In this document: in pieces, positions 100 through 31,576 of the stretch
Layout of the letters: each line of letters opens with the position of its first letter
Numbering within the stretch: position 1 is the stretch's first letter
Origin: a virus
Length of the DNA stretch: 32,073 nt
Virus record (IMG/VR): IMGVR_UViG_3300036845_000127
Span: 1-32,073 of that record
Reading direction: 5' to 3' (one strand)
Made by a program: the position numbers and the translations under genes
Notes under the pieces: generated by a model
Seen by the model: only the letters and a program-made list of their open reading frames with translations
Told to the model about the DNA's origin: nothing
Database searches by the model: none

Positions 100-424
100 G
101 CTGAACCTCTATCGTTACTTCCTGCCCCTCGCGACGAATGCGGGGCTCTCGACCGAACGCGCCCGCAAGGCGTGGGAGGCTGAAGCTTTAAAGGTCGCTG
201 GGGGCTACACGCTGAACGCCTTCGCGGATGGCGTGTGGCAAGGGGAAGGCGGCAAGGTCTACAAGGACCGTATCGCCCCCTATGACGTGGCGACGGATCG
301 GGAGGGGGCCGCCAAGCTCACTGAGGCTTGGTTTAAGGCCTTCCCGGATCAAGAAGCCCTCTTCGTCGCCAAGCTGGGGGAGGCGACCATTCTCCCCCGT
401 GAGCTGGCGGCCCTCGGCGCGTAG
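92..424 (+). CDS. Hypothetical phage protein, 110 aa
   Basis: ATG start with AAGGA about 9 bases upstream. The product is a small soluble protein with no signal peptide or membrane segment. It has a helical N-terminal part (STERARKAWEAEALK) and a C-terminal half with a YDVATDREGAAKL segment and a WFKAFPDQEALFVAKLGEA segment. I do not recognise a named family, although the layout resembles small conserved early proteins of proteobacterial phages. A TTTAAA core at 187-192 lies in the codons for Leu-Lys, giving a TTA leucine codon that is rare here. The gene is followed directly by a strong terminator, so it closes a transcription unit that starts left of the window. Confidence 0.8.
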   Translation: MSKLNLYRYFLPLATNAGLSTERARKAWEAEALKVAGGYTLNAFADGVWQGEGGKVYKDRIAPYDVATDREGAAKLTEAWFKAFPDQEALFVAKLGEATILPRELAALGA

Positions 425-434
425 CTTCAAACTC

Positions 435-753: not shown

Positions 754-1644
754 ATGACCGACCTACTTACAGCCCCCAACGTCGGGACTGGCCCCCATGG
801 CGTCGAGCATGACGCCTCGGACGGCTTCTATTACCTGACGCTCCACGGGACGCGCACGGGCAAGAGCTACCCCCTCGGGAAGACCGCCTATCGCACGGCC
901 CGCAAGCTCAACGATGAGCACGGCCCCGAGGCTGTGCCCGGCTTCCTGGAGGACCCGGAACCGAAGGCGACGGCCCCCGCGCCCAAGCCCAAGGCTCCCA
1001 AGCCCGCGCCAACTCCCAAGGCTCCCCCGAAGATCGAGGAGCCCGGCAAGGTCTTTAAAGGCACGCGCGAGGAGTGGCTTAACGGCTTCATCGCGGCGGC
1101 CCGCCCCGTGTTCAAGGCGCATGGGCTGGAGCTTCCCGAGAAAATCCGGGCGAGCGTCGGCTTCATGTTCCGGGGCGGCAAGGCTATCGGGCAATGCTGG
1201 CACGAAGCCAGCTCGACGGACGGGACGCGCGAAATCTTCGTGATCCCGACGCTCGACGACAGCGCGCGGATCGCGGACGTGCTCACGCATGAGCTGTGTC
1301 ACACGCTGTTCGGCCCGGACGAGAAGCACGGCAAGAACTTTAAAGCCGCCGTGACGAAGCTGGGGCTCGAAGGCAAGGCGACGGCTACGGTCGCCGGGCC
1401 GGGCTGGCTCGAATGGGCCGGGCCGATCCTGGAGGACTTGGGGCGCATCCCCCATGCCGCCATCGACCCCGCGCTCTCCGGCGTCAAGAAGCAGAAGACC
1501 TACCTCCTCAAGTGCGAGTGCGAGGAGTGCGGCCTGATCTTCCGGGCGACCGCGAAGGCGATCAACGGCAAGACCCTGCGCTGCACCGACGCGGACTGCG
1601 ACGGACTGGTCAAGGTCGAGGGCGCGGAGGAGACCGGCGAGTGA
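754..1644 (+). CDS. SprT-like zinc metalloprotease with C-terminal zinc ribbon
   Basis: I chose ATG 754 because AGGAGG sits 6 bases upstream and a promoter ends just before it; the frame is open further upstream but across both promoters. The 296-residue product has an N-terminal module of about 60 residues, a Pro/Lys/Ala-rich linker (PKPKAPKPAPTPKAPP), a central domain with the metalloprotease motif HELCH (residues about 180-190), and a C-terminal ribbon with the cysteines CECEEC and CTDADC. HExxH plus a zinc ribbon is the layout of SprT/SprT-like proteins, known elsewhere for cleaving protein-DNA adducts. Its role in the phage is inferred only. Two TTTAAA cores (1054, 1339) encode Phe-Lys. 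The gene overlaps the next by 4 bases. Confidence 0.75.
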   Translation: MTDLLTAPNVGTGPHGVEHDASDGFYYLTLHGTRTGKSYPLGKTAYRTARKLNDEHGPEAVPGFLEDPEPKATAPAPKPKAPKPAPTPKAPPKIEEPGKVFKGTREEWLNGFIAAARPVFKAHGLELPEKIRASVGFMFRGGKAIGQCWHEASSTDGTREIFVIPTLDDSARIADVLTHELCHTLFGPDEKHGKNFKAAVTKLGLEGKATATVAGPGWLEWAGPILEDLGRIPHAAIDPALSGVKKQKTYLLKCECEECGLIFRATAKAINGKTLRCTDADCDGLVKVEGAEETGE

Positions 1645-2045: not shown

Positions 2046-2429
2046 ATGGGTAAGAGCTTTAAAGCCCTCGTGCATGTGGGCGAAACGCTGAGCGACGACT
2101 TCACCCAGATCGTGGCGTGCATCGACGGCCAGCTCTGGGAGCTGGACAGCGTGCTCTCGGCGATCAACAAGGATGCGGTCGGCTACCGCCGCTCCAACGC
2201 GGCCAACCTGACGGGCGGGGCGAACTACGTGCCCGGCGAGCTGGAGCAAGCCGTGGGCCGCTCGGCTGAACTGCTGCAAGCCCTCAAGCCGGTCGCCGAG
2301 CTGGCGGCCAAGTGGGCTGCGGAGGACGCGGCGCTCGCCGCCGATCCCGGAGCCGCCGCACGCGCCGCGAAGACCTACGAGGCTAGCGCCGATCCGCGCA
2401 AGCCGGGCCGCTACGAGATCAGGGCATGA
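2046..2429 (+). CDS. Hypothetical helical protein, 127 aa
   Basis: ATG with GGAGGA 7 bases upstream, starting 3 bases after the previous stop. The product is soluble and Ala-rich. Its C-terminal half is predicted helical (PGELEQAVGRSAELLQALKP, then an AAKWAAEDAALAADPGAAAR-type stretch). No motif is recognised. A TTTAAA core at 2058 encodes Phe-Lys at residues 5-6. The stop overlaps the next start as ATGA. Confidence 0.7.
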   Translation: MGKSFKALVHVGETLSDDFTQIVACIDGQLWELDSVLSAINKDAVGYRRSNAANLTGGANYVPGELEQAVGRSAELLQALKPVAELAAKWAAEDAALAADPGAAARAAKTYEASADPRKPGRYEIRA

Positions 2430-3162: not shown

Positions 3163-5033
3163 GGCAGGAACCACAGGAGGCTCGGGCCAACCCCGATGCA
3201 GTAGGCCTCCAGGCGCGTCCGCGCCAGCTTCGCCAGCACCTTCTCCTGCCTAGAGATCAGCGCCTCGCGCGCCTCCTCGGTCATGTCCGGGTTCGCCTTG
3301 CTCACCATCTCGACGGCCAGGACCCGCGTCGCCACGCCGTTGTCCGCGCCGACCGCGCCCATGTCCCGCAGCATCGCGCCAATCTCCTTGGGGGCGAGCA
3401 CGTCCTGGACACGGGTGAGCGCGGAGTAGTCTTTAAAGTCAATGGGCTGGAGCACCATCTGGCCCATAATCTCCCGGCCCTCGAAGCACCAGGGCTCCTC
3501 ACGCTCGGGGGCGTCCTTCTGCCTGACGCACCGCACGCTCACCGCGCGCAGGCCCTTGTTGCGCGAGACCTGGAACGCCGCATCGACCGCACCCTCAAGC
3601 GCGTTGGAGCCGCGCATGCCGCGCCCCTCTTCCTTGCCGGTGTGGTGGACCACGAGGACGGCGCACTTCAGGTGCGTCTTGATTGCGTCGAGGAAGGAGA
3701 TCATCAGGCCCATGTCGCGGGCGTCGTTCTCGTTCAGGCCTACAGCCGTCCGCGCCAGCGTGTCGATGACCACGAGGCCGGGCCGCAGCACCTCAATCTC
3801 CTTGATGAATTCGAGCTTCGCCTCATCGTCGGCGGCCCATGGGGCTTCGTTGATGAGGTAGAACGGGATGGGACCATCGACGCCGCGCGCCGCCTTCCAG
3901 GCGTTCTTGCGCTCCTTCACGCCGCGCCCGCCTTCGCCCGCCACGTAGACCACGCACGTCCCGAGGGTCGCCAGCTCGGCGCTCCAGTTGACGGCAAGGT
4001 AGGTCTTTAAAGAGCCCGGCGGCCCGAACAGGACGCTCACGCCTTCGTCGGGGAACAGGTCGGGTATGAGCCAGCTCGGGGCAGGCCAGTTGTCGGCTTC
4101 TTCCTCCGTCCACGGACGGAACCGGCGACGCCGGGGCTTGGGGTCGGGCGGGGGCTCCTCATCGGGTAGGTCTCCGAGATCAAGCGTGTCTAGGACTGAT
4201 CCGAAGGCCTCCTCTGAGGAGCCCGCCGCCCATGCGCCCGCCTCGTTCTGGGCGTAGCGAGCTGCGTTTTCGACCTTGCACGCCAGCTCATCTTCGTCCC
4301 ATGGCGGTACGCAATGAGGGTTCCAGAGTTCGCACAGGAGCGCCAGCGCCATCTCCTCGGAGATGCCCAGGTTCATCACCTTGCACGAAATTACAAACGT
4401 AAACTGATCGCCCATGTGCCCCTCGACCGCGACCTTGCCTTGGGCCACACAGTCGAGCAGGAACTTCCGGGCGCGGTTGACATTGATCGGCGCGTCGAGG
4501 TCATCGACCGCTGCCTTGACATGCTCCCGCTTTAAAGCTTCAAGGAACTGCCCGACTTCGGGGGGCAGGGGCGCGGGCGAGCGGTCATCCTCGACCACAT
4601 ACGGCTTACCGCCGACCACCGAAGGCGGTACAAGCGCATAAGAGCCAACGCCTCGGGTGTCGATATGCTCGCCGAGCTTCGACTGAGTTGCCGGGAGAAT
4701 GCCGGTGTAATACTCGTGGAGCCCGCCGCGAGGCGTGCGGACTTTGTAAGTTGCCGGGAGGCGAACGTGCTCATCTTGCCACTTCTCCCACGCGATGATC
4801 CCCTCCTGGCCGTCGAGGTCAACGATACCCTGCCCGACCATGTGAGGACTGAACGCGATATTGTATTGCGGGTTCTCCGACCACCAAGCGTCAATAACCG
4901 CAAGATCAGTCGAAGCATCGTGGAACCCATTCGGCGTGGCGGGTTGCTTTAAATCCACCTTGCAGGGGAATACAGGGACGCCGTTGCTGGCGAGGCGCTG
5001 TGCTTCTGCGTGGAGTGCTGAGAGAGGTTGCAT
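3159..5033 (-). CDS. Prim-Pol (AEP) primase fused to RepA-like helicase
   Basis: 624 residues. Residues 1-150 are a bifunctional primase/polymerase (AEP) domain: DxD metal ligands in VDLDG (D72, D74), a GGLHEYY segment with H106, and DTRGVGSYALVPPS near 125-139. A helical linker domain follows (about 180-265). Residues about 315-530 form a RecA-like ATPase: Walker A GPPGSLKT (K343), Walker B LVVIDTLAR (about 419-427) and a VVHHTGKEEGRGMRGS loop, as in RSF1010 RepA-type helicases. It should prime and unwind at the fork. The Walker A Leu-Lys is encoded across a TTTAAA core, forcing TTA for Leu; three more cores lie at 3432, 4531 and 4948. It is the only - strand gene in the replication arm and has only a weak GGA Shine-Dalgarno. 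Confidence 0.9.
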   Translation of the reverse strand: MQPLSALHAEAQRLASNGVPVFPCKVDLKQPATPNGFHDASTDLAVIDAWWSENPQYNIAFSPHMVGQGIVDLDGQEGIIAWEKWQDEHVRLPATYKVRTPRGGLHEYYTGILPATQSKLGEHIDTRGVGSYALVPPSVVGGKPYVVEDDRSPAPLPPEVGQFLEALKREHVKAAVDDLDAPINVNRARKFLLDCVAQGKVAVEGHMGDQFTFVISCKVMNLGISEEMALALLCELWNPHCVPPWDEDELACKVENAARYAQNEAGAWAAGSSEEAFGSVLDTLDLGDLPDEEPPPDPKPRRRRFRPWTEEEADNWPAPSWLIPDLFPDEGVSVLFGPPGSLKTYLAVNWSAELATLGTCVVYVAGEGGRGVKERKNAWKAARGVDGPIPFYLINEAPWAADDEAKLEFIKEIEVLRPGLVVIDTLARTAVGLNENDARDMGLMISFLDAIKTHLKCAVLVVHHTGKEEGRGMRGSNALEGAVDAAFQVSRNKGLRAVSVRCVRQKDAPEREEPWCFEGREIMGQMVLQPIDFKDYSALTRVQDVLAPKEIGAMLRDMGAVGADNGVATRVLAVEMVSKANPDMTEEAREALISRQEKVLAKLARTRLEAYCIGVGPSLLWFLP

Positions 5034-5114: not shown

Positions 5115-5369
5115 ATGACGAAATCCCTGCATCAACAGATCAAGAGCGCCACCGCGCTCCAGAGCATCCGACAGGCCGAAGCGATGGCCGGTCACACGGT
5201 CGGGCAGCACTATCGCCCGTTCCGCCAGTTTCCGCAACTGCTCGCCACCACGCCGCGCCGCCACAAGGCGAACCGGCAGGAGAGCAAGGCCCGCGCCCGC
5301 TGGATGGGGCTCTACCGCTTCTTCCGGCCCGAGAGCTTCCACGACGGCGAATACGGCTTGGGGCTTTAA
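5115..5369 (+). CDS. Hypothetical basic protein, 84 aa
   Basis: I chose ATG 5115 (GGAG 6 bases upstream); the ATG at 5103 and a TTG at 5088 in the same frame have poorer signals. The protein is small and rich in Arg, Lys, His and Gln, with aromatic residues near the C terminus (ARWMGLYRFFRPESFHDGEY). It may bind nucleic acid, but no family is recognised. Its TAA stop is formed inside a CTTTAAAG palindrome at 5364-5371. Confidence 0.65.
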   Translation: MTKSLHQQIKSATALQSIRQAEAMAGHTVGQHYRPFRQFPQLLATTPRRHKANRQESKARARWMGLYRFFRPESFHDGEYGLGL

Positions 5370-5378
5370 AGCCCTCCG

Positions 5379-7019
5379 ATGATCCTCGACTACAACCCCA
5401 GCTCCCGCATCTTCCTCCTCCGGGTGCCCCGTGTCGCGGGCGCACCGGACGTGAAGTCGCTCATGACCGAACATGGTCTGGACTTCTCCGCGTCTGCCTC
5501 CAGGCCGGGGGAGGCGGTGCTGTTCACGAACCAGCCCTATGCGGCGTGCGCGTTCTTCGAGTACGCGACCGACCGCGCGAAGGCGCAGCTCATCGGGCTC
5601 CAGGGCCAGATCGAGATGAGCTGGGCGAAGGAGAGCAAGGGGCATATCAAGGTCCCGGACGACGAGGAGCTTGCCCCGTTCCAGATCGCGGGCGTGGAGT
5701 ACGCGCTCCAGCGGCAATGCACCCTGTTCGGCGACGTGCCCGGCCTCGGCAAGAGCCCGGAGGCCATCGCGTTCTGCAATGAGATCGGCGCGAAGCGCGT
5801 GCTGGTCATCTGCCCGGCGAACATTCGGCTCCAGTGGGTCAAGGTGATCCGGCGCTGGACCACTTTAAAGTTCCCCTACACCGTCTACCCCATCGTCCAC
5901 GGGCGGCACGGCGTCCACCCGTCCGCCAATTTTACAGTCGTAAGTTACGACCTCGCTTCGAGCCCCGCCATCTGGAAGGCGCTCGCGAAAGGGACCTATG
6001 ACGTACTCATCATCGACGAGGGCCACTACCTTAAGACCGTTGATACCAAGCGCACCCGCGCCGTCTTTGGAGGAGGCCTGCACCCGGTTGCGGAGGCGCT
6101 GTTTACTCGCGCTGGAGCGATCCTCGCCCTCACGGGAACACCCCTACCTAATCGCCCTCGCGAGGCTTACACGCTAGCCCGTGGGCTCTGCTTCGACAGC
6201 ATCGACTGGATGAGCGAGGACACCTTTAAATCCCGCTTCAACCCGAGCCGCCGGATCACCACGGAGAAGGGCAAGGTGTTCATCGACGAGCGGGCGGGCC
6301 GCCACGGTGAGCTGCAAGCCCGGCTGCGGTCGAACTTCATGGTCCGACGAGAGAAGTACGGGCCGAACGGCGTGGGCTACCAGCTCGGCATGCTCCAGAT
6401 GCCACAGTTTGAGGTGATCCAGGTCGAAGAGAACGCCGCCATCAAGCGCGCGCTGCAAGCGGAGCGCATGCTGGACATTGACCCGGAGGAGCTGGAGGGC
6501 GCGGACGCCGAATGCCTCGGGCAGGTTGCCACCGTGCGCCGCCTGATGGGCGTCGCCATGGCCCCGCTCGCCGCCGAGTACGTGGACATGCTCTTGGACG
6601 GGGGCGAGGAGAAGATCGTCCTGTTCGCCCACCATCACCAAGTGCTCGACATTCTGTGCAAGGAGCTGGCCCCTTGGGGCGTGCTGCGGATCGACGGCAA
6701 CACGTCGCAGGCGGGCAAGCAGCGCAACGTCAACGCCTTCATCTCCAACCCGCGCGTCCAGGTTCTCGTCGGCAACATGATGAGCATGGGGACGGGCACG
6801 GACGGGCTCCAGGAGGTGGCGCACCGCGCCGTGTTCGCCGAGCCGGACTGGGTGCCGGGCGTGAACCAGCAAGCCGTGGACCGACTGGATCGCGGCGGCC
6901 AGAACGTGCAGGTCCAAGCGGACTTCCTCGTGGCCCCCGGCTCCTTCATCGAGCGCATCCTGGCGTCGGCGCTGCGGAAGCACCAGAACACTCACAAGTC
7001 TCTGGATCGGAGGCTTTAA
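5379..7019 (+). CDS. SNF2-family DNA helicase/translocase
   Basis: 546 residues with the SF2/SNF2 set: motif I GDVPGLGKS (about 118-126), motif II IIDEGH (DEGH in place of DEAH, about 210-215), motif III LALTGTPLPNR, a C-terminal lobe with KIVLFAHHHQVLDIL, and motif VI QQAVDRLDRGGQ (about 497-508). The first 110 residues are a beta-rich extension as in annealing-helicase (SMARCAL1-like) proteins of phages. These enzymes move on duplex DNA and remodel forks or recombination intermediates. No good Shine-Dalgarno precedes ATG 5379, so translation may be coupled to the gene ending 9 bases upstream. TTTAAA cores at 5864 and 6225 are coding; the one at 7015 supplies the TAA stop. Confidence 0.9.
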   Translation: MILDYNPSSRIFLLRVPRVAGAPDVKSLMTEHGLDFSASASRPGEAVLFTNQPYAACAFFEYATDRAKAQLIGLQGQIEMSWAKESKGHIKVPDDEELAPFQIAGVEYALQRQCTLFGDVPGLGKSPEAIAFCNEIGAKRVLVICPANIRLQWVKVIRRWTTLKFPYTVYPIVHGRHGVHPSANFTVVSYDLASSPAIWKALAKGTYDVLIIDEGHYLKTVDTKRTRAVFGGGLHPVAEALFTRAGAILALTGTPLPNRPREAYTLARGLCFDSIDWMSEDTFKSRFNPSRRITTEKGKVFIDERAGRHGELQARLRSNFMVRREKYGPNGVGYQLGMLQMPQFEVIQVEENAAIKRALQAERMLDIDPEELEGADAECLGQVATVRRLMGVAMAPLAAEYVDMLLDGGEEKIVLFAHHHQVLDILCKELAPWGVLRIDGNTSQAGKQRNVNAFISNPRVQVLVGNMMSMGTGTDGLQEVAHRAVFAEPDWVPGVNQQAVDRLDRGGQNVQVQADFLVAPGSFIERILASALRKHQNTHKSLDRRL

Positions 7020-7020
7020 A

Positions 7021-7788
7021 GTGATAGAGCTGGAGGACTTCGAGTACGACGAGATCATGTACCAGCTACAGCGCGCACTAGAACTTGTTGACAGGCTCGA
7101 AAAACGCGGCTACTGCTGCGGAACTACTAAACCCCAGGCCAAGGAGGACTTCAGCATGGGACAGATCAGCAACATCACCGTTCGCGCCAGCGACGGGATC
7201 AAGACGGCGGACTACGCGCCGCCGAAGCTCTACGATATCACCGCCATCATCATCCCCACGGACGATGACAACGTGGACCAGCTCCTCACCGACACGCTCG
7301 CGCGCATCAACCGCGCCGGGCAGGCCTACCTGACGGGCCGCGTCACCGCTCCGGCGGCGACTGGCGGTAGCGATCCGGCGGCGGTCGAGGAGACCCCGGC
7401 GACCCCGCGCAGGAAGCGTCGCACGGCTGCGGAGATCGCGGCTGACGAAGCCCTGGCGCGCGCCGCCCACCCGAAGGGCGAGACCCCCAAGGACCCGGCG
7501 GCGGTCGGCGACGACGACTTCCAGATCGAGGGCGAGACCCCGGCGGAAGGCGGCGAGGACGACTTCGCCATCGAGCCGGAGACGGCTGACGAGGAGATCA
7601 CGGACGCGGCCCTGAACGCCGCCGTCCAGCGCAAGAACGCCGAGCTGAGCGACCCCGAAGCCATCCGGGGCCTCATCAAGCAGTACAACCCCGACCCGAC
7701 CAAGGCCTTCCAGCTCCGGGAAATCCCGCAGACCAAGCGCGCGGAATTCATCACGAAGCTCGGCGGCCTGACGAAGGCGTCGGCCTAA
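7021..7788 (+). CDS. Acidic replication-region protein with two possible starts
   Basis: Two starts in one frame are supported. GTG 7021 follows GGAGG by 7 bases and gives 255 residues. ATG 7156 follows AAGGAGG by 8 bases, has its own promoter (7088-7116), and gives 210 residues. The extra N terminus is acidic and helical with a Cys-Cys pair (EYDEIMYQLQRALELVDRLE, then KRGYCCG). The shared part has a beta-rich N terminus (GQISNITVRASDGIKTADYA), an Ala/Pro/Glu-rich disordered middle with two similar acidic segments (DDDFQIEGETPAEGG and EDDFAIEPETADEE), and a helical end. No family is recognised. Its place before the nuclease, SSB and polymerase suggests a replication or recombination accessory. 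Confidence 0.75.
   Translation: MIELEDFEYDEIMYQLQRALELVDRLEKRGYCCGTTKPQAKEDFSMGQISNITVRASDGIKTADYAPPKLYDITAIIIPTDDDNVDQLLTDTLARINRAGQAYLTGRVTAPAATGGSDPAAVEETPATPRRKRRTAAEIAADEALARAAHPKGETPKDPAAVGDDDFQIEGETPAEGGEDDFAIEPETADEEITDAALNAAVQRKNAELSDPEAIRGLIKQYNPDPTKAFQLREIPQTKRAEFITKLGGLTKASA
7088..7116 (+). promoter_or_regulatory. Candidate internal promoter TTGACA-N17-TACTGC
   Basis: TTGACA at 7088-7093, 17 bases, TACTGC at 7111-7116. It lies inside the N-terminal extension of the acidic protein gene and just before the internal AAGGAGG and ATG 7156, so it could make a transcript for the short form only. Codon use around it is less GC-rich at third positions than upstream. Confidence 0.5.
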
Positions 7789-7796
7789 AGCTTCCT

Positions 7797-7888
7797 TGCC
7801 TGGAAGATGGGGTTAGCGCCCCTACCCCCGCCCCGAGCTATTACAGCAGACAGGGCGGGGGAACCAGGCACTTTAAAGGACCCAGGCA
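7797..7888 (+). promoter_or_regulatory. Structured leader with alternative pairing at the RBS
   Basis: The gap before the nuclease gene can fold as a three-way junction. TGCCTGG (7797-7803) pairs with CCAGGCA (7864-7870) and encloses a small GGGG/CCCC hairpin (7809-7822) and a 9-bp hairpin CCCCCGCCC/GGGCGGGGG (7825-7833, 7853-7861). A second copy of CCAGGCA at 7882-7888 directly abuts the ATG at 7889. Between the two copies lies CTTTAAAGGA, which contains the Shine-Dalgarno. If TGCCTGG pairs with the second copy, the ribosome binding site becomes enclosed. No T-run follows, so it is not an intrinsic terminator. Confidence 0.5.
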
Positions 7889-9130
7889 ATGGACCAACCA
7901 GATCACAGCAAGCGCGCGCACTCGCCCCTCGGGGCCTCGGGTGCGGAACGCTGGATGAACTGCCCCGGCAGCGTGTCCCTCCTGCGCGAGCTTCAGCTCC
8001 CGGAGAGCGATGAGCCGGATTACCGCCGCGAGGGTACGGCGATGCACGAGGCCGCCGAGCACTGTCTCCGGGGCGGGCTGGACACGTGGGAGATCGTCGG
8101 CCAGACGTTCAACGAGACCGTGATCGACGCGCCCATGGCGGACGCCATTCAGGTCTACCTCGACTGCGTGCGGAAGGACATTGACCGCGCTTCTTGGTGG
8201 CAAGTCGAGTACCGCATCTCCTCGCCGGTCCACCCCGACTTCTACGGGAGCGCCGACCTCGCCGCGCTGATCCCCGCCGAGGGGCGGACGGCCATGGCGG
8301 ACATGGGGAAGGACCCGAACGAGTGTCTGATCGTCACCGACCTCAAGGGCGGCGAGGGCATTATCGTGGAGCCGGAGGAGAACCCGCAGGGCATGTACTA
8401 CGCCTTCGGCGTGATCGACCAGACGGAGCGCCAGAGCGCGATCACCTTCCGCGACGACCTCAAGGTCTGCATCCGCATCGTCCAGCCGCGCGCCTTCCAC
8501 CACGCCGGGCCGATCCGAGAGTGGTGGACCACGGTCGGTGAGCTGAAGGAGTGGGTCCACTCCGTGCTGGTGCCTGCCATGGCAAACGCGGAGATCGACA
8601 ACACGCTTGACGCTGGCCCCTGGTGCCGCTTCTGCCCCGCCAAGCTGGTCTGCCCCCTGCTGACTGGGCTCTTTAAAGCCGCCGCCGTGGCGAACCCCGC
8701 CGAGGTGGTGAACTACAGCGACGAGAGCTTGGGCCGTAGCTGGCGCTACCGCGAGGCGGTGAAGTTCTATCTCGGGGCGCTCGACGCGGAAATCTTCCGC
8801 CGCATGAACAAGGGCCACGTCTTCACCGACGTTGCCAAGCTGGTTCCGAAGCGCGCCAACCGGGTGTTTAAGCCCGAGGCCCCGGAGCTGGCGAAGAAGA
8901 AGTTCGGGGCCGACGCCTTCACGAAGCCGGAGATCAAGAGCCCGGCTGAGCTGGAGAAGCTGGGGCCGGACGCCAAGGAGTTTGTGAAGGAGTATGCGTA
9001 CATGCCCTCCACCGGCCTGACAGTCGCCCCGTGGGACGACCCGAAGCCCGGCGTGCGGGTAGAGACAACCGAAGAAGCCTTCGGCTCCGTTGTGGAGGCG
9101 CTAGGCCTAGCAGAAGGATCGAGCGAATGA
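7889..9130 (+). CDS. DUF2800 PD-(D/E)XK nuclease (Cas4-like)
   Basis: 413 residues. The N terminus HSPLGASGAERWMNCPGSV and the early REGTAMHEAAEHCL are hallmarks of DUF2800 phage nucleases. The PD-(D/E)XK core is seen as FYGSADLAAL (acidic ligand) and VTDLKGGEGIIVEPEENPQG (D-x-K, then helical N-x-Q). A Cys cluster, WCRFCPAKLVCP, follows at about 248-259, as in Cas4/AddB-type nucleases that hold iron-sulphur clusters. It most likely acts as an exonuclease in phage recombination or end processing, with the DUF2815 protein two genes on. Shine-Dalgarno AAAGGA lies 8 bases before the ATG. TTTAAA at 8672 encodes Phe-Lys. Confidence 0.85.
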   Translation: MDQPDHSKRAHSPLGASGAERWMNCPGSVSLLRELQLPESDEPDYRREGTAMHEAAEHCLRGGLDTWEIVGQTFNETVIDAPMADAIQVYLDCVRKDIDRASWWQVEYRISSPVHPDFYGSADLAALIPAEGRTAMADMGKDPNECLIVTDLKGGEGIIVEPEENPQGMYYAFGVIDQTERQSAITFRDDLKVCIRIVQPRAFHHAGPIREWWTTVGELKEWVHSVLVPAMANAEIDNTLDAGPWCRFCPAKLVCPLLTGLFKAAAVANPAEVVNYSDESLGRSWRYREAVKFYLGALDAEIFRRMNKGHVFTDVAKLVPKRANRVFKPEAPELAKKKFGADAFTKPEIKSPAELEKLGPDAKEFVKEYAYMPSTGLTVAPWDDPKPGVRVETTEEAFGSVVEALGLAEGSSE

Positions 9131-9654
9131 CCAGACTGACCAACGCTTTAAAGCGCACAATCATCGACGCCGTGCTGGAAGACCTCCCGAAGACCGACTT
9201 CTCCGAGACCGCCCGCAAGCGCGCCCTGGAGCTGGCGGTCGCCCATCTCCCGCCGGAAGCCCAGCGCATCTGGAAGGACGGCGCGCGGCGCGGCCTGCTG
9301 AAGACCTCCTCGCTCTACGTCTGGGGCAAGGACGACCGGGGCGTCGTGGTGAGCGTGAGCCTGCCCGGCTTCGAGACCTACCACGACGAGATCAAGAAGG
9401 ACCCGCAGTTCGCGGCGGCCTGCGCTGCGGTCCAGGAGCAGAAGAAGACGTTCGACGAGCTGAAGCTGAAGCTCAAGGGCCAGCTAAACGCCTGCCCGAA
9501 CGTGAAGACCTTCTGCGAGCGGTTCCCCGATCTGGCCTGCTACGTCCCGGAGAGCGAGGCCGAGCCGGTCAACCTCCCGGCGACCACCGACCTGATCGAC
9601 AACCTGAAGGCGGCGGGCCTGAAGCTGCCGCGCCCCCTGAAGAAGGCCGCTTGA
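9127..9654 (+). CDS. Nmad5-like protein, 175 aa
   Basis: ATG 9127 overlaps the nuclease stop as ATGA and follows AAGGA by 9 bases. The N terminus MTRLTNALKRTIIDAVLEDL and the later WKDGARRGLLKTSSLYV resemble the family named Nmad5 (nucleotide modification associated domain 5), whose members begin with LTxAIRxxI and carry a LPTSSS-like segment. That family was named for its neighbourhood with DNA-modification genes; its activity is not established. The match is by eye and moderate. The C-terminal half is helical with a Lys/Leu-rich coil (TFDELKLKLKGQL). TTTAAA at 9147 encodes Leu-Lys. The TGA stop lies within the TTGACA of the next promoter. Confidence 0.55.
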   Translation: MTRLTNALKRTIIDAVLEDLPKTDFSETARKRALELAVAHLPPEAQRIWKDGARRGLLKTSSLYVWGKDDRGVVVSVSLPGFETYHDEIKKDPQFAAACAAVQEQKKTFDELKLKLKGQLNACPNVKTFCERFPDLACYVPESEAEPVNLPATTDLIDNLKAAGLKLPRPLKKAA

Positions 9655-9679
9655 CACGACGGGAGGGCCGCGCTAGGCT
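9651..9679 (+). promoter_or_regulatory. Promoter TTGACA-N17-TAGGCT
   Basis: Perfect -35 at 9651-9656, a 17-base spacer and TAGGCT at 9674-9679, overlapping the end of the Nmad5-like gene. The -10 and spacing equal those of the candidate at 2664-2692. It should drive the ssDNA-binding protein and possibly the polymerase operon. Confidence 0.65.
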
Positions 9680-9690
9680 CTCCCGGTAGT

Positions 9691-9709
9691 CCCCCATTCC
9701 GGGGGTTTT
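9691..9709 (+). terminator. Stem-loop with T-run at the start of the SSB transcript
   Basis: CCCCC (9691-9695) pairs with GGGGG (9701-9705) around ATTCC, followed by TTTT. It lies about 5 bases after the predicted transcription start of the 9651 promoter, so it may end upstream transcripts or act as a 5' protective hairpin or attenuator for the DUF2815 gene. The stem is short, so termination may be partial. Confidence 0.5.
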
Positions 9710-9743
9710 CAGCCCGCGCTTTTGCGGTAAGGAGTTAGACGAT

Positions 9744-10530: not shown

Positions 10531-10535
10531 CGCAC

Positions 10536-14476: not shown

Positions 14477-14500
14477 TCCACCGCCCACGAGGAGGACCCC

Positions 14501-17263: not shown

Positions 17264-17275
17264 AGTGGTCCTCCT

Positions 17276-17569: not shown

Positions 17570-17592
17570 TGTGGCCTCAGAATGAAGGGCCG

Positions 17593-17849: not shown

Positions 17850-17861
17850 AGCCGCTCGACC

Positions 17862-18326: not shown

Positions 18327-18337
18327 CGGTCAATCCT

Positions 18338-23600: not shown

Positions 23601-25384
23601 CCTCCAGTAGTCGCAAGGCTGTAGCTCGGGACCTTGGGTTCCTCGCCCGCGCCAGGAGGGCCTTCGCCGCCCCCACCGCCGCCCGTGCGCCTGCGCTCGT
23701 TAGCGAGGTACTTCTGGGTCTCGGTGGGGAGGAAGCTCTCATCGCGCGCAGCGGGCTTGGTCTCATAGCGGATACCTCCTCTGACGGTCTTGTCCGGCAC
23801 GGCGTCCAGGGCTGAGCCGGGGCCAGCTTTCATGTACTCGCCCGCGCGGCCCGGCCCCGCATTGTAGGCGATGGCGATGGCGTTCATGTTGCCCGCGTAC
23901 CGCTTGTAGAGGTCCGCGACGATGCGATCCGCGACGGCGCTGTTGACCTTGGGGTCGAACAGGGTATGCACGTCGAAGTCGTTCCCCATGTACTGGCGCG
24001 CGGTCGCGGGCATGATCTGGTAACGCCCGATGGCTCCCTTCGGGGACACCGCATCGTCGCCGGAGCCTTCGAGCTGGCGCAGCATCTCCTTGGCGTGGGC
24101 CGGGCTCTGGGCGTAGCCGTTCGGGCCGGTGCTGACCAGGGCGGTGCCGGGCTCGCTCGCGGCGGGCGTCTCACTCGGCGGGGAGAACGGTCCCTTCTTC
24201 GGGGTGATGTTCCGCATGGTCTCCGGCTGGAGCCAGCCGACCTGATGCTCCGGCACGAGCCCGGCTTCCCGAACGTCCGGGTTGTAGGGCGGCGGATCGG
24301 CGGGCGCTGCGTTGCGGGTCTGCGGCGCGACCGGATCGCCCTGCGGGTCCTGGGCGTACAGCTCTTGCTTGAAGATCGGATCACGCGCAGCGCGAGCGGC
24401 GGCCTCCCACGGCGGGGTGCCCGTTTGGCGGTACAGCGTCTCCAGGTTGGACTGCACCCGGCCCACCTTGTCGGAGAGGCCGCCCTTCGCCGCCGCGTGC
24501 GCCGCACCCAGACCATGAAGTCCGAGGGTCAGGAGGGCTGCGGTGGTGAAGTCTGCTGCGTCAGGCATGTGCCCGTCCAGGGCCGAGGCGGTGCCGACAG
24601 AGGTCGCAACGGTCGCCGTGCCCGCAACCCCCGACGAGACCAGCTTCGAGGCTCCCATGGCCTCCAGCTTGCCCGCAACGGGGCCGCCGGTCATGTTGGT
24701 CACAGCGCCGACGATCCCGGCCTTGGTGGTCTCCCACAGGCTGCTGGCGATCACGTGGGTCGCATCCTGCCACGTCTTGATCTTCCCGTCGTGCAGCGCG
24801 TAGGCGTCGAGCAAGATTTGACGGCTGGCTTCCGGGGTCGCCCCCATGCCGAAGCCCGCGCCGCCGACCGCGCCGATGGCTTCAGTCACGCCCGTCTCAC
24901 CGCCCACCGGGACGGCTGCGCCCGCCGTAGTACCCGCCGCCGCGCCGCCGAAGAAGCCCGCCACGCTGGCCGGGGCGTCACCCGCGAACTGCCCGACCGC
25001 GTTCAGCACCTTGTTCGTGATGCTGGCGTTCTGGGGGAGGACGGTCGTGGGCGCGCGACGGTTGACGATCAGCCCGGTCACGCTGCGATCCCAGCCCGCC
25101 GCGAAGGCGTCCCAAGGGGTCTGGGCCAGCTTAGGGTCCTGGTTGGCGTAGGCGGTGTAGTTCGTGGCGACGTGCGCGCTCAGCGCCGCGTTCGCGGGCA
25201 CGGAGTTGCCCCAGTAGTGGTCGATCTCATCGGCTTTAAAGCCACCCGCCTGAAGCTTGGCGGTCTGCCCCTGCGCCCACTGGGCGACTTCGCCATCCGA
25301 GAAGCCCGCCGCCTTGAGCTGCTGAGCCTTGGCTACGCCAGGGGCGACGGGATAGGGGGCAGCAACTCCGGGTACATCGGTCAT
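20693..25384 (-). CDS. Internal-virion ejection protein with lytic transglycosylase domain
   Basis: 1563 residues, ATG 25384 overlapping the upstream stop (ATGA). A helical start, a Gly/Ala-rich hydrophobic region (about 115-300) that could form membrane helices, an SLT lytic transglycosylase domain (about 425-528) with DDAVSPKGAIGRYQIMPATA and IAIAYNAGPGRAGEY, a Gly/Pro-rich linker (about 585-640), then about 900 mostly helical residues. It corresponds in order and content to T7 gp16, with the enzyme inside rather than at the N terminus. It should open the cell wall and form part of the DNA channel during ejection. TTTAAA cores at 21297, 22640, 23238 and 25235 all encode Lys pairs (LK or FK). 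Confidence 0.85.
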   Translation of the reverse strand: MTDVPGVAAPYPVAPGVAKAQQLKAAGFSDGEVAQWAQGQTAKLQAGGFKADEIDHYWGNSVPANAALSAHVATNYTAYANQDPKLAQTPWDAFAAGWDRSVTGLIVNRRAPTTVLPQNASITNKVLNAVGQFAGDAPASVAGFFGGAAAGTTAGAAVPVGGETGVTEAIGAVGGAGFGMGATPEASRQILLDAYALHDGKIKTWQDATHVIASSLWETTKAGIVGAVTNMTGGPVAGKLEAMGASKLVSSGVAGTATVATSVGTASALDGHMPDAADFTTAALLTLGLHGLGAAHAAAKGGLSDKVGRVQSNLETLYRQTGTPPWEAAARAARDPIFKQELYAQDPQGDPVAPQTRNAAPADPPPYNPDVREAGLVPEHQVGWLQPETMRNITPKKGPFSPPSETPAASEPGTALVSTGPNGYAQSPAHAKEMLRQLEGSGDDAVSPKGAIGRYQIMPATARQYMGNDFDVHTLFDPKVNSAVADRIVADLYKRYAGNMNAIAIAYNAGPGRAGEYMKAGPGSALDAVPDKTVRGGIRYETKPAARDESFLPTETQKYLANERRRTGGGGGGEGPPGAGEEPKVPSYSLATTGGGAGGGGEPPSGGPPAVGGEPPEEEHTKFWAKASESAATDEMLRNIGEDPKAPSVFNLDRIASQFVSELSPARAIDNRLIKAGEMDRTRDLGAEDMFRQTYASDMRTGAFIKYGEIDPITLKLKVGSPSIMDAIKSVKDKGGDLQGFTAYLLAKRTVDKMGQGIDTGFNPEAATNLASQKGAIKKYEDASILWNSVMDGVLRYSRDSGVHSQADIDAMMRDNPAYISMRRIMGDDASFQPGGGRTFSATDPLRRMEGSDRQIVDPIAATLDNMRLIVKMADRNRAIGHIIGQIERGEIENPGLLKIEDSQTIKNPDESVFKPYGLPPEATPGDTYSAELAQRQMKGGNPNDFLFMRDGKPEVWRATDPALARLLRGADSPGEADFITKTFQTFASLERSGIVISPDFPTKVQLRHQITAFIMDPLHPPPFLTWLNGISHVIKQDDLYKQAISTGALGVSLADMDANWLARDMDKVFTETNTWSGVTNALQHPIQFAQIVSERMDAAARIGYIKQAQAQGIDSIKAATMSRKAYLDYAERGTSVVVQRLAQAIPFFRPHLLGMKQGFEGFEPNKPGETMWGRTAETAAYSVAGVALPMIALYALNYFQDKDLPDDRKFANEPQFLKDNYFTTPEIAGVRFRLKTPPNVGFVLGGLVNRFLDFAVQHDQHAFEGWAKQFLDQYIPPLMPTVVQAPLEVAANHSFYTGQSLVPGSMEKDSGYMQYTPATSETGKALSRVLGPPGLDVANFSPIQFDHLVQGWTGTLGAAALKALDMPITAVQHVTDSPWEVGKKPGQAADLPFVGSFLARNPGTSAAPISKFYDLAQKIEAEHADFALAMKRVQTSGSTAEIDQTAASGQYATAIAPIKEAIARQTAVIQGINANKNMTADEKRQATDQLMPQIIATAKQGINAIDDIGRANAATSPAGPPASGGGLPAHVAPEPMPAAPQAPARPPVAPTVGANRGEVPVA

Positions 25385-27646: not shown

Positions 27647-30600
27647 TTAGCGGTCCTGCGTGTGGAGGAAGGCCCCCATCGTACTGACGTTGGCCGGGTA
27701 CGGACGGTCGATCTCCCAGCACAACATCGAGTTGAAGCTGTAGGTGTCGTCCAGAGTATCCCAAAGCACGTCGGAATACAAGGTCGTCAAGGGCAGAGTG
27801 GTCTCGTCATCCGCGCCGTGCAGATTGCCGGGCCGCAGGAAGTTGAAGTCCGTGCCGAAGCTGATCCCCTGCGTCTTGAAGAGGAGGGCTCCGAACATAT
27901 GCGAGCGCCGGGTCTTGGCCAGCGCAGGGCCGTTCCGCGAGCCCGCCTCCTGCGGGTTGATGGGCCGGAGGATTTGCCCCTGGCTCGTGAAGGTATAGCC
28001 GATGGCGACAGGGACCGTCCAGAACACGCCGTCGCTCGGCGGGATCGCTGCCGGGATCGGGTTCGGGCTCGGGCCGAGGGTCGCCCAGGAGGTGAAGCTC
28101 GCGGGCGTCGTCCCGATCTGCGGGACCGTGCCGCCGCTCGTGTACTGGAGGTTGACGAAGACGTTGCCGGTCTGGTCATCGGAGAACTGCTGGCTCGGCG
28201 CTCCCGCGATGAAGGTCAGCGAACCGCTGCTGGTCATCACGCCGGTCGCGGTGTTGATCGACCGCATGATCGCCGTCGCGCCGGAACCGTCCAGGAAGTT
28301 GTAGCGCCCGTGCCGCAGCCGCGATTGGTTGACGAGCTGGAACGACGCGAGGGTGTTCGTGATGACGTTGCTCCACATGACCGCGCGGGTGTGGACGTTG
28401 ATCTTCGCGATCCGGGTTTCCCCGGCGGGGCCGCTGACGCCCAGGTCGGTCCAGAACGCCGTGCCACCGATGGTCGGGGTGTGGTTCGTGTTGCTGTTCT
28501 GGAGGCTCACGAAGTCGTGCCCGCTGATGCTCACGAGGTCGCCGATCACGTAGGTCGATATGGCCGACCACGCGGCGAGGGCCTGGGTCGTGAAGTGCCC
28601 GATGATGTTGCCGTCCGTCTGGTCGAGCATGATGCCGGGGCACGTGGTGACGTGGGTCCAGCCGGTCCCGATGTTGGCCGGGGCGACGAAGCCGATCTTG
28701 TCCATCGCCGACGTGCCGAAGGAGATGAGCACGCGGTACAGGCCGATGCTGATAGAGCCGCCCAGGTTGTTCGTGGAGGTCAGCACCCAGGCCCGCCCGC
28801 GCCCGCCGATGGCCGTGCCGGGGCAGACGACGCCCAGGAACTCGTCGGTGTGGTGGTCGGCCCCGTCCCACACGATGGGGTTGAAGGCGAAGTCCGGGTT
28901 AGTCAGCGAGAGCACGCTGATCTGGCCGCTGGTCTGCGACGAATTTAAAGCGGTGCTCACGAGGTAGGTGGCGCGGTTGATCGTCACCGTGCAAACGTCG
29001 CGCGGGTAGGCCCAGTGCGTGGCGTCAGTCGGCATGGCGCTGGAAGCGACCCCGAACGAGGCCAGCTCAGCGAAGGTCTTGCTGTCCATGCGCTTCAGGA
29101 TCGCGACGTTGGTCGCGCCGATCCAGCCGTAGAGGTAGCCGTCGCCCGCGTACATGAGGCCGTTGTTGCCGTTGGGCGAGCTGACCGGGCCGTCGAGCAA
29201 TTTAAAGCTCGTGGCGCTGTAGCTGGCGATCTTGCCGTCGAAGGCGTCGCCGATGAAGAGCCGCCCGCCATCCCAGTCCACGGACGGGCCGCCGTTGTCG
29301 TGGGTCAGCGGGGACAGGTCGAAGTTCTGGATGCCGGTCAGGGTCGGCACGGGCGGCACGCTGTTGGGGGTGCGGACGATGGCGAGACCCAGGCCGTGGA
29401 AGTTGCTGGTCGAGTTGAGGCTGGCGAGCCACCCGTTGGTCAGGAGCGGGTTGCCGGAGCCGTCGATGGGAATGTCCAGGTGGCCGTCCGCCGCGACCGT
29501 CAGCGTCCCCGCGTCGATCCCGCCAGCGAACACGTCCACCGACTGCCCGGCGAGATAGTGGAGGCTGTAGAGGCGCAGGACTTGCGGCGGCCCGACGAGC
29601 ACTTCCCACATGCTGGGGGTCTCGGCGAAGTCCACGTACATCGCGTCGCCGATGGTCCAGTCCACGTCGAACATATCGGTCTGGAGGAGCGACCAACGCT
29701 TGTCGTTGGCGTCCTTCACGATGAGCGCGAGGGCGTCGATGGTGCCGTCGAAGTTCGGCCCGGCCTGGATGCTCTCGACCGTCAGGCCGTGCATGTCGTG
29801 CCGCGCCCAGCCCGCGAAGTCCGGGGGCTCGCTCGCATAGGGCTGCTCGCGCCGATAGGTGCAGCTCAGCAACGCGCCGTTCGTGTCCCTGGCCCAGATC
29901 GTCGGGACCTTCTCCCGCTGGTAGGCCAGCTCAACGATCCCCGGCTGGGTCAGATGCTTGCCGGTCAGGGACAGGTTGTGGGCCGACAGGCCACGGAAGT
30001 CGGTCGTGACGTACTCCAGCACCTTCTTGTTGAGGCGCTGGACGAAGGTGATCGTGATGCCTGTCCGCTTCGGCGGGACGTTGGCGCAGCCGTAGACCGT
30101 CCGGCGGTGGGCCTGGACCGACGTGGGGGTCAGGTTGTCGTTCTGGGCGCTCGCCTGGACGAGCCATTCGCCCGCCTGGGTGCCGCAGATGATGCCGAGG
30201 GTGTCGGGCTCCATCCAGAAAATCTTGTTCACGTCCTTCGAGTTGAAGACGTAGGCGCAGGAGTTGTTGTCCGCGACCGTGCCATCGGAGGCGGTCGGGC
30301 TGAAGTTGAAGGGGTCGTTCGACACGCTGCCGTCCAGGCGGTTGCCGATCACGCCCGCGAGCCACAGGCGGCCCTCGTGGTAGGTGCCGCACGTCGGGTA
30401 GCCCGTCGTGTTGCTGTAGAGGCCCAGCCTCCACGTGGCGCAGGCCGAGGTGCGTGGCAGGTTCGTCACGCCGTCCACGGGCGTCAGGGTGGCCGTGACG
30501 ACGGTCGGCGAGGTGTAGGCCGTGATGGTCGCCCAGACCCAGATCGCCGCCGTGGTCGAGATGGCCCAGTTCACCACGTCGCTGTCCGGCTGCTTGCCGG

Positions 30601-31576
30601 TGTTGGCCTTTAAAGCCTGATAGTACGTGCCGTCGAACTTGACCTGATCGCCGACTGCATATCCCGTGCCAACCGCCCAGGCGGCGGGTTCGCTGAAGAG
30701 GCGGACGAAGCGGCCCACGTCGGTCGCGGCCCAGCGGGTCGAGCCTCCGGCCAGGGTCAGGGTCGTGCTGCCCGAGACCGCGCCGGGAGTGATGGTCGTG
30801 CCATCGGTGGGCGGGTCCAGATATGGACCATCTTTAAAGACCGCCGGGCCGAGGCTGAAGACCGCGAAGTCGGTGCCGGTCTCGGGCTGGGTGCTGATGA
30901 TCGCGTAGGGCTGGTAGGCGTTGTGCAGAAGCAGGAGGTCGGTCTGGTCCTGGACCGTGTTGATGGCCTGGAGGTCCGCCGTCTGATAGGGCGTGGCGAA
31001 GTCGGCGATCCGCGCGACCGTCAGCTCCGTCGAGCCCAGGACCATGCTGGTCCCGTCGATGGTGACGCCCGTCACCGCGTCGGCTATGGTAAAGGTGTTC
31101 GCGCCCGTGACCGTGACCTCAAGCTGGCGACCCAGGAGCGCGGCGATGCTGGCGTTGGCCGTCTGGTTCGGGGCGAGCGTCACCAGAACCTCGTCGCCGG
31201 TCGCCCAGGTGTGCGGGGCGTCCACGGTGACGGTCACGGGGTTGCCGGTGTCCAGGCTGTCGATGACCCGCGTGCCGAAGCTCTCCTGGACGATGCCCGC
31301 GCCCGCGAGGAAGCGGAGGTGGCCGTGCGTCAGCTCCAGGTTGTAGCTGTGGCTCTCGGCGAAGTGGAACTCGCGCAGCACGCCCGGCGCACCCTTGCGC
31401 GTGGGGCCGATGAGGCGCTGGCCGGGACGGCGCACCCACGAGCCCTCCTCAATCGGCAGGCCGTTGCGGCAGACGTTCATGCCCGTGCGGTAGCGCGGGT
31501 CGTCCATGCGGCCTTGGACCAGGGGGCTCCACTCGCCGCCGAGGAAGCTGGTCTGGAGATAGGATGCGTCAGCCAT
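27647..31576 (-). CDS. Giant tail tubular protein B-like protein with inserted domains
   Basis: 1309 residues. The N terminus (YLQTSFLGGEWSPLVQGRMD, then CRNGLPIEEGSWVRRPGQR) is typical of podovirus tail-tube/nozzle proteins analogous to T7 gp12. The C terminus (TSQGQILRPINPQEAG, GPALAKTRRSHMFGALLF, ENDing DRPYPANVS) returns to that family. Between residues about 700 and 1190 is an insert with propeller-like repeats (DWDGGRLFIGDAFDGKIASY, MYAGDGYLYGWIGATNVA). Two short modules look like CBM5/12 carbohydrate binders: WAVGTGYAVGDQVKFDGTYY (about 300-345) and WSAISTYVIGDLVSISGHDF (about 1000-1045). TTTAAA cores: 28944, 29201, 30609, 30833. Residues beyond the core suggest the nozzle also binds host glycans. 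Confidence 0.8.
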   Translation of the reverse strand: MADASYLQTSFLGGEWSPLVQGRMDDPRYRTGMNVCRNGLPIEEGSWVRRPGQRLIGPTRKGAPGVLREFHFAESHSYNLELTHGHLRFLAGAGIVQESFGTRVIDSLDTGNPVTVTVDAPHTWATGDEVLVTLAPNQTANASIAALLGRQLEVTVTGANTFTIADAVTGVTIDGTSMVLGSTELTVARIADFATPYQTADLQAINTVQDQTDLLLLHNAYQPYAIISTQPETGTDFAVFSLGPAVFKDGPYLDPPTDGTTITPGAVSGSTTLTLAGGSTRWAATDVGRFVRLFSEPAAWAVGTGYAVGDQVKFDGTYYQALKANTGKQPDSDVVNWAISTTAAIWVWATITAYTSPTVVTATLTPVDGVTNLPRTSACATWRLGLYSNTTGYPTCGTYHEGRLWLAGVIGNRLDGSVSNDPFNFSPTASDGTVADNNSCAYVFNSKDVNKIFWMEPDTLGIICGTQAGEWLVQASAQNDNLTPTSVQAHRRTVYGCANVPPKRTGITITFVQRLNKKVLEYVTTDFRGLSAHNLSLTGKHLTQPGIVELAYQREKVPTIWARDTNGALLSCTYRREQPYASEPPDFAGWARHDMHGLTVESIQAGPNFDGTIDALALIVKDANDKRWSLLQTDMFDVDWTIGDAMYVDFAETPSMWEVLVGPPQVLRLYSLHYLAGQSVDVFAGGIDAGTLTVAADGHLDIPIDGSGNPLLTNGWLASLNSTSNFHGLGLAIVRTPNSVPPVPTLTGIQNFDLSPLTHDNGGPSVDWDGGRLFIGDAFDGKIASYSATSFKLLDGPVSSPNGNNGLMYAGDGYLYGWIGATNVAILKRMDSKTFAELASFGVASSAMPTDATHWAYPRDVCTVTINRATYLVSTALNSSQTSGQISVLSLTNPDFAFNPIVWDGADHHTDEFLGVVCPGTAIGGRGRAWVLTSTNNLGGSISIGLYRVLISFGTSAMDKIGFVAPANIGTGWTHVTTCPGIMLDQTDGNIIGHFTTQALAAWSAISTYVIGDLVSISGHDFVSLQNSNTNHTPTIGGTAFWTDLGVSGPAGETRIAKINVHTRAVMWSNVITNTLASFQLVNQSRLRHGRYNFLDGSGATAIMRSINTATGVMTSSGSLTFIAGAPSQQFSDDQTGNVFVNLQYTSGGTVPQIGTTPASFTSWATLGPSPNPIPAAIPPSDGVFWTVPVAIGYTFTSQGQILRPINPQEAGSRNGPALAKTRRSHMFGALLFKTQGISFGTDFNFLRPGNLHGADDETTLPLTTLYSDVLWDTLDDTYSFNSMLCWEIDRPYPANVSTMGAFLHTQDR

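Follow-up and report, generated by a model that had tools for sequence, protein, structure and literature searches.

A SprT-like metalloprotease as the proposed reader of octamer sites repeated along phage and plasmid genomes

The 32,073-bp virus record IMGVR_UViG_3300036845_000127 of IMG/VR (66% GC; analysed at its full length and called the window below) carries a short palindrome, CTTTAAAG, along its whole genome and encodes a SprT-like zinc metalloprotease, which we propose as the reader of these sites. Among the closest described proteins are SPRTN (Spartan) and Wss1, which are DNA-dependent proteases of DNA-protein crosslinks (DPC); in SPRTN, a zinc-binding subdomain located after the protease domain contacts DNA (PMC9240642). 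The phage protein has the same order of domains and differs from SPRTN in that it appears to read 8-10 bp of duplex sequence. We know of no dispersed cognate sites for SPRTN or Wss1. ArdC of plasmid R388 is likewise a metalloprotease carried by a mobile element; it binds DNA, is structurally similar to Spartan and IrrE according to its authors, and possesses an N-terminal domain that binds single-stranded DNA without sequence specificity (PMC7213743). The ArdC order, with the DNA-binding domain ahead of the protease, was not found in the phage protein, whose conserved part consists of the protease domain and then a zinc ribbon, and genome-wide sites are not reported for ArdC.

Several repeated DNA motifs are also comparable. 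The stoperators of cluster A mycobacteriophages are 13-bp asymmetric sites that follow the direction of transcription and to which a repressor binds. They share with the present sites a dispersal of tens of short sequences, a reader encoded by the phage, and specificity that depends on lineage. The sites described here differ in being 8 bp long, in having a metalloprotease as proposed reader, and in lying mostly within genes (28 of 35 in the window), and neither a single orientation nor a mainly intergenic placement was found. The Start-Associated Sequences (SAS) of cluster K mycobacteriophages (GGGATAGGAGCCC) likewise recur as a short word across phage genomes; they are non-palindromic, share one orientation for the most part, and usually precede start codons by 3-7 bp (PMC3203893), a placement that the window sites do not have. 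Finally, HIP1 (GCGATCGC) of cyanobacteria, also a highly iterated palindrome, is described as a motif of cellular chromosomes tied to orphan methyltransferases (PMC4390886). Here, the enrichment was found only on mobile elements, a methyltransferase common to all carriers was absent, and no chromosomal enrichment of the HIP1 type was noted in 398 Pseudomonadota genomes or in five genomes checked for the site family.

Site counts and codon context

The left part of the window contains replication genes, mostly on the plus strand, and the right part contains structural genes on the minus strand. The initial annotation had reported at least 35 TTTAAA cores, including 27 full CTTTAAAG octamers, and both numbers and their positions held on recounting (Table 1). 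Expected counts throughout are second-order Markov estimates; for the whole window, zero-, first-, and second-order models gave 0.76, 0.46, and 0.12 TTTAAA and 0.083, 0.050, and 0.028 CTTTAAAG. Because these models expect only 0.1-0.8 cores and 0.03-0.08 octamers, the enrichment first put at about 30-fold is real in kind and was set too low in size. TTTAAA was the only frequent member of the 64 A/T-only hexamers, AAATTT occurring once as had been observed, and variation of the octamer was limited to the outer base, with zero inner one-mismatch variants in the window.

A codon-aware null model, which the initial annotation had called for, was also run. Synonymous shuffling within genes yielded 0.9 TTTAAA (maximum 3 in 60 shuffles), compared to 28 real sites in genes. 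The pair Phe-Lys was encoded as TTT AAA in 17 of 27 cases (0.06 expected from codon usage elsewhere) and was itself in excess (27 vs. 15.9 from composition), and all 11 TTA codons of the window fell within the motif. Sites in genes and at stops had been noted before and were found again, although the former list of two codon phases and stops gave way to three contexts: TTT AAA (n = 17), (C)T TTA AA (n = 11), and gene ends or intergenic DNA (n = 7, five being CTT TAA stops). The spacing of the sites was more even than random (coefficient of variation, CV, 0.61; P ~0.002), with a minimum gap of 224 bp; a recurring gap of 417 bp was taken as chance.

Association of the motif with the SprT-like gene

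Relatives of the window were collected through a shared exonuclease (window 13251-14474), with gene calls in metagenomic records made by an in-house script and trees built in FastTree. The motif was absent from G001, G002, G003, G004, and G010, all of which were without a SprT-like gene. Some motif-less relatives were nearer to the window in their polymerase, helicase, and tail genes than the motif-bearing G006, a more distant phage with 36 GTGYAAAC sites; G019 and G020 carried eight and seven GTTTAAAC, respectively. The initial annotation had stated that homologous phages lacking the motif would refute its reading. Such phages do exist, but they are exactly those without the SprT-like gene. 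Only two window genes were found in motif-bearing and not in motif-less phages, encoding a PDDEXK_15 endonuclease and the SprT-like protein.

When the SprT-like alignment alone was used as query, a scan of viral contigs returned 80 loci, nearly all of which were enriched in a single octamer belonging to the family [G/C]T[G/T]TA[A/C]A[G/C]. A site of this family (z of 5 or more) was found in 93 of 101 SprT carriers, many of them near-identical aquatic phages (58 proteins left at 90% identity), and in 0 of 54 loci without the gene; given this redundancy, the Fisher P value of the contrast is not to be read at face value. The motif family was already known from the initial phages when scoring of the larger set began, so the near-independent tests are the isolates, the plasmids, and six held-out phages only. 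Among 11 motif-bearing genomes from very different hosts, the SprT-like gene alone had detectable homologues in all; a second apparent common gene proved to be an antisense frame of it. Its neighbours varied from phage to phage. The sequence evidence supports the SprT-like protein as the determinant of the motif and, almost certainly, as its reader.

Other candidates were set aside. The PDDEXK_15 endonuclease (12918-13250), initially common only with G006, was rejected on motif-free homologues in L084 and L087, and the helix-turn-helix Mre11-like exonuclease (13251-14474) on its presence in every relative, motif-bearing or motif-less. PrimPol, SNF2 helicase, and PolA occur in motif-less relatives too, and no window homologue was found for a 66-aa protein common to G006, G019, and G020. 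Single-protein scans with PolA and a 1309-aa structural protein returned zero relatives.

Enrichment was observed in named isolates of diverse hosts. Streptomyces phage Crosby contained 41 GTGTAAAC compared to 0.05 expected, and site counts were 33, 22, and 16 in Microbacterium phages Honk, Zeta1847, and Mabodamaca, 27, 26, and 21 in Arthrobacter phages Tweety19, DrManhattan, and Crewmate, 20 GTTTAAAC in Dinoroseobacter phage R26L, 16 in Pseudanabaena phage Pan1, and 7 in Burkholderia phage Mica. Enrichment was weak or nil in Arya, ep3, Mano, and Persinger and zero in Celaena, FP1, and Epa5, where a second, different motif was sought and not found. In Mica, Arya, Persinger, and Mano (L177, L178, L179, L183), the SprT-like gene adjoins a gene for a single-stranded DNA-binding protein or is separated from it by one small gene.

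SprT-like homologues were also present in 70 plasmid records, and plasmid copies lie near repA and partition genes. The Magnetospira plasmid MGMAQ_p carried 18 GTTTAAAC (0.39 expected), an S. yanoikuyae plasmid eight sites, and Sphingobium pUT1 (L264) five GTTTAAAC (0.03 expected). All five are in the pUT1 backbone and none in its transposon and insertion-sequence block (5368-18864), so the site content of such plasmids may serve to date insertions. Among the 398 Pseudomonadota genomes, the highest density of CTTTAAAG was ~73/Mb, compared to ~840/Mb in the window, and the five genomes checked for the site family had no chromosome-wide enrichment. The chromosomal homologues in G192, G244, and G334 have lost the arm described below, and these genomes showed no genome-wide enrichment. 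A striking chromosomal bias was noted separately in G116, a 2.9-Mb Pseudomonadota genome with 179 CTTTAAAG vs. 14 of the reversed control.

Arm residues, site words and conservation in place

The product of the SprT-like gene matches phrog_6361 at 8e-40, and its longer reading (550-1644) scored 27.7 bits with PF10263 (curated cut-off 25.6). The HExxH residues and third ligand (H81, E82, H85, H94) were invariant across the SprT-like alignments A4 and A5. The AlphaFold2 model of the core had a mean predicted local distance difference test score of 88; in VIA, residues 1-127 were led by SPRTN (6MDW, Z 8.2; 6MDX, Z 8.1) and Wss1 (5XBV, Z 7.8), with root-mean-square deviations of 3.5-3.7 over ~100 residues, and residues 149-197 resembled zinc ribbons of MCM and ribosomal proteins. 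A PDB profile search gave nothing relevant. In the 207-aa homologue L041:3546-4169, the protease domain starts almost at the N-terminus.

Each element was found to use one word. The window has CTTT/CTTT with outer-base variants, R26L has GTTT/GTTT, and G446 has GTGT/GTGT, while the 41 sites of Crosby are GTGT/GTTT, with neither GTGT/GTGT nor GTTT/GTTT among its frequent combinations. Many phages possess only the asymmetric GTGTAAAC and neither symmetric word, so that the dimeric protein suggested from the palindrome is no more than a possibility; Percival and Marky have two GTTTAAAC each alongside their GTGTAAAC sites. In the G-type phages, the outer flank is usually C...G, giving CGTKTAMACG.

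Two columns of the protein alignment separated the site classes, and both lie in an arm just before the zinc ribbon with the consensus KKQxTRxLK (Tyr at 152 in the window). All 85 elements with an outer G carry Arg at residue 152, and all six CTTTAAAG phages carry Tyr, Ala, or Ser there; this was the sole column with a perfect split of outer G and outer C, with three changes each on the tree and zero mismatch. Lys occupies residue 148 in all 86 elements in which one or both halves are of the TTT type, and Ala or Thr takes its place in the five GTGTACAC phages, which sit in three places of the tree. L088, inside the clade of the window, has Thr150-Arg152 rather than Lys150-Tyr152 and uses GTTTAAAC, and at one homologous position it has GTTTAAAC where L089 has CTTTAAAG. 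Pairing of arginine with guanine is established chemistry, and we infer that Arg152 uses it for site reading here.

For the held-out test, the arms of six further isolates were read and GTKTAAAC was counted on the complete records. The isolates with KKQxTR arms had 16 (GardenState), 16 (Percival), 17 (Maureen), and 37 (Marky) sites, compared to 0 of the reversed-pattern control, and those with changed arms, Armstrong (TKSRSGKSIK) and Katzastrophic (GKSRSGRSIK), had 0. FP1 and Epa5 have lost both the arm and the zinc cysteines and have zero motif. It was noted that the Microbacterium phages Celaena (L173), Armstrong (L275), and Katzastrophic (L276) keep HExxH with a different arm (KSRSGR/KSRSGK); their proteins may read another word. 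A ParB-like gene lies directly downstream of the SprT-like gene in Celaena and Katzastrophic.

The sites were also conserved in place. L030, a 15.5-kb relative with ~76% nucleotide identity across the structural half, has 13 TTTAAA compared to 0.2 expected, and in gap-free alignment six of nine window sites were conserved (2.1 expected). Where a site was absent from the relative, the common synonymous form CTTGAAG (TTC AAG, coding strand) was sometimes found, so synonymous change can create sites. Across twelve pairwise comparisons, sites were kept in place more often than other octamers, including window-L089 (12/12; 4.0 expected), Honk-Zeta1847 (13/16; 2.5), Tweety19-DrManhattan (14/17; 3.9), Crewmate-DrManhattan (15/19; 5.2), and G446-G449 (5/6; 0.9). 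Significantly even spacing was noted in the window, L030, Crosby (CV 0.55), DrManhattan (0.51), R26L (0.37), L089 (0.39), L090 (0.43), L096 (0.47), and G446 (0.27). Crosby has 11 of 37 sites at least partly in intergenic DNA (2.2 expected), which would be anticipated if sites come to rest in weakly constrained DNA. The two strands carried GTGTAAAC 21/20 in Crosby and 13/13 in G006, with skew in some Arthrobacter and Microbacterium phages.

Further observations concern neighbouring genes and other relatives. The Mre11/SbcD-like exonuclease has a conserved nuclease part and an N-terminal helix-turn-helix that is highly variable among relatives. A protein with the dATP/dGTP diphosphohydrolase N-terminal domain PF18909 (15039-15560) is conserved in most relatives; PF18909 proteins occur in phages with 2-aminoadenine (Z) genomes. 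An Nmad5 (nucleotide modification associated) domain protein (9127-9654) was present in 0/9 relatives compared. L047 and L048 (G004, without the SprT-like gene) have another dispersed motif near AATAAT (ATTATTGC/GCGCAATAATCT), partly clustered, and in L058 (Achromobacter anxifer), 21 kb around an exonuclease relative contained seven ATATACTA vs. 0.04 expected.

Table 1. Features of the protein and its sites in the window
Feature	Position	Strand	Basis
SprT-like zinc metalloprotease gene, 296 aa, phrog_6361, proposed motif reader	754-1644	+	profile matches, gene sharing
HExxH zinc-protease motif (HELCH); third ligand His at 1327-1329	1288-1302	+	sequence
Putative DNA-reading arm KKQKTYLLK, core residues 147-155	1486-1512	+	residue-base co-variation
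Arm residue 148 codon	1489	+	co-varies with motif bases
Arm residue 152 codon	1501	+	co-varies with motif bases
C-terminal zinc ribbon (Cys158, Cys161, second Cys pair)	1492-1638	+	AlphaFold2 model, VIA-align
CTTTAAAG site	186-193	.	word count
CTTTAAAG site	1053-1060	.	word count
CTTTAAAG site	1338-1345	.	word count
CTTTAAAG site	2057-2064	.	word count
CTTTAAAG site	3431-3438	.	word count
CTTTAAAG site	4005-4012	.	word count
CTTTAAAG site	4530-4537	.	word count
CTTTAAAT site, outer variant	4947-4954	.	word count
CTTTAAAG site overlapping TAA stop	5364-5371	.	word count, gene context
CTTTAAAG site	5863-5870	.	word count
CTTTAAAT site, outer variant	6224-6231	.	word count
CTTTAAAG site overlapping TAA stop	7014-7021	.	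word count, gene context
CTTTAAAG site, intergenic	7871-7878	.	word count, gene context
CTTTAAAG site	8671-8678	.	word count
CTTTAAAG site	9146-9153	.	word count
CTTTAAAG site, intergenic	10520-10527	.	word count, gene context
CTTTAAAG site	10897-10904	.	word count
CTTTAAAG site	11894-11901	.	word count
CTTTAAAG site	12828-12835	.	word count
CTTTAAAT site at stop/start overlap	13245-13252	.	word count, gene context
CTTTAAAG site	14090-14097	.	word count
ATTTAAAG site at gene end	16446-16453	.	word count, gene context
CTTTAAAG site, gene end, upstream of endolysin gene, conserved in L030	17274-17281	.	word count, alignment
GTTTAAAG site, outer variant	17732-17739	.	word count
CTTTAAAG site	18299-18306	.	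word count
CTTTAAAG site	19887-19894	.	word count
CTTTAAAG site, conserved in L030	21296-21303	.	word count, alignment
GTTTAAAG site, outer variant	22639-22646	.	word count
CTTTAAAG site, conserved in L030	23237-23244	.	word count, alignment
CTTTAAAG site	25234-25241	.	word count
CTTTAAAG site, conserved in L030	27112-27119	.	word count, alignment
ATTTAAAG site, outer variant	28943-28950	.	word count
ATTTAAAG site; L030 with CTTTAAAG near same place, gapped stretch	29200-29207	.	word count, alignment
CTTTAAAG site	30608-30615	.	word count
CTTTAAAG site, conserved in L030	30832-30839	.	word count, alignment

Proposed function and its alternatives

From these comparisons of sequence, CTTTAAAG is very probably a double-stranded DNA recognition site read by the SprT-like protein of the phage itself. 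The initial annotation had proposed a protein-binding site at the DNA level that fits no described system, and the association of gene and motif and the co-variation of residues and bases favour that view. None of its specific candidates (a nucleoid protein, packaging factor, stoperator-like silencer, nicking site, or host enzyme) found support, the evidence pointing instead to this metalloprotease. The arm leading into the C-terminal zinc ribbon would read the duplex site, in which the outer base depends on residue 152 and the third base on residue 148. With sites dispersed over the whole genome, the protease would be loaded onto the DNA of its own element at intervals, and such sites are likewise kept by many unrelated phages and by some plasmids that have the gene.

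The tethered protease would then be active near its own DNA and remove or cleave DNA-bound proteins, with covalent DNA-protein adducts, host silencers, and defence enzymes as candidate substrates, during early infection or replication. We put this clearing step forward tentatively, from homology and spacing. As a whole, the statement that the protein reads genome-wide sites, loads at intervals, and clears DNA-bound proteins seems to us somewhat favoured. It is conceivable, though we would not yet lean on it, that this is a widespread and unrecognised strategy of mobile elements, in which many 8-bp addresses are self-written, the zinc-ribbon arm of a Spartan-like protease reads them, proteolysis is confined to proteins on the element's own DNA, and arm and address co-evolve (CTTTAAAG, GTTTAAAC, GTGTAAAC, GTGTACAC). 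Writing the addresses would cost codon choice and even protein sequence.

Several observations weigh against this proposal. Homology does not by itself give a proteolytic role, because SPRTN is described as recognising structural features of DNA (junctions, unpaired bases) and not its sequence (PMC9240642) and the anti-restriction effect of ArdC works without protease activity (PMC7213743). Foldseek gave no significant PDB match for the core model, and a VIA Z of ~8 is a level that its own note calls possibly a mere common arrangement. The arm does not differ between GTTTAAAC and GTGTAAAC phages, so the choice between these two words must depend on residues other than those of the arm. Even spacing was not universal, being at or above random in G006, G445, and L142. 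One prediction failed: the chromosomal homologue in G208, with the near-canonical arm KKQKNRYHK, is motif-free within ~35 kb.

It is unlikely, though a serious alternative, that the SprT-like protein reads the sites for a mainly architectural or regulatory purpose (stoperator-like silencing, partition, or condensation for packaging), with the protease secondary. Genome-wide sites on both strands, often evenly spaced, would suit such a role, as would the plasmid copies near repA and partition genes and the dispensable metalloprotease domain of ArdC (PMC7213743). Idle catalysis is hard to reconcile with HExxH and a third His that are invariant across the aligned family, and the sites are mostly in genes with no general orientation rule.

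A self/non-self or dosage device appears improbable; in this reading, the many sites of the element sequester or titrate a protease that, left free, would turn on cellular targets or on competing elements without sites. In its favour, host chromosomes are without comparable enrichment, and jumbo-phage SprT-like peptidases have been proposed as cutters of host proteins (PMC7824862); in one screen, the mycobacteriophage SprT-like protein LHTSCC gp83, at most a possible member of the present family, was cytotoxic with filamentation (PMC7474061). A sponge requires copy number, however, and not even spacing or conservation of sites in place.

We consider it very improbable that the sites are nicking or processing sites for replication or packaging with SprT as an accessory only. 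Regular spacing is compatible with this, and the DNA of T5 and LUZ24/phiKMV-like phages carries localised interruptions. Yet GTGTAAAC follows no strand rule in Crosby or G006, although certain phages of Arthrobacter and Microbacterium show a skew; a nuclease or replication gene common to all carriers was not found, and the bases are tracked by SprT residues rather than by a nuclease. Codon usage, mutational bias, or a host-chromosome motif has only the legality of TTT AAA and TTA AAG as codons in its favour and can practically be dismissed given the synonymous shuffles, the motif-free close relatives of similar base composition, the 0/398 Pseudomonadota host genomes near the window density, and the residue-base co-variation.

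Relief of type II restriction is also unlikely as the main role of the SprT-like protein and its sites, since many 6-bp palindromes are still missing from the window altogether. Nineteen with ~10 or more expected were absent, including CGGCCG and CCGCGG (0 vs. 42 each) and GGCGCC and GCCGGC (0 vs. 39 each), which suggests strong type II restriction pressure; the avoided subsets of relatives differ from that of the window.

In a literature search that left most subscription papers outside, no paper was found to name these words as phage motifs or to give phrog_6361 a site. In more than 160 GenBank phage records and 70 plasmid records, the gene is labelled SprT-like protease, transcription elongation protein SprT, or hypothetical and nothing more, and it now receives a testable molecular function. 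Genome-wide phage motifs of this class receive a candidate reader, with two residues forming a partial recognition code. Isolated carriers among the phages of Arthrobacter, Microbacterium, and Streptomyces can be grown on standard laboratory strains. If the protease is active where it is bound, it would be a DNA-addressed protease, of which we know no described case. If true, this would tell which DNA-bound host proteins phages and plasmids need removed.

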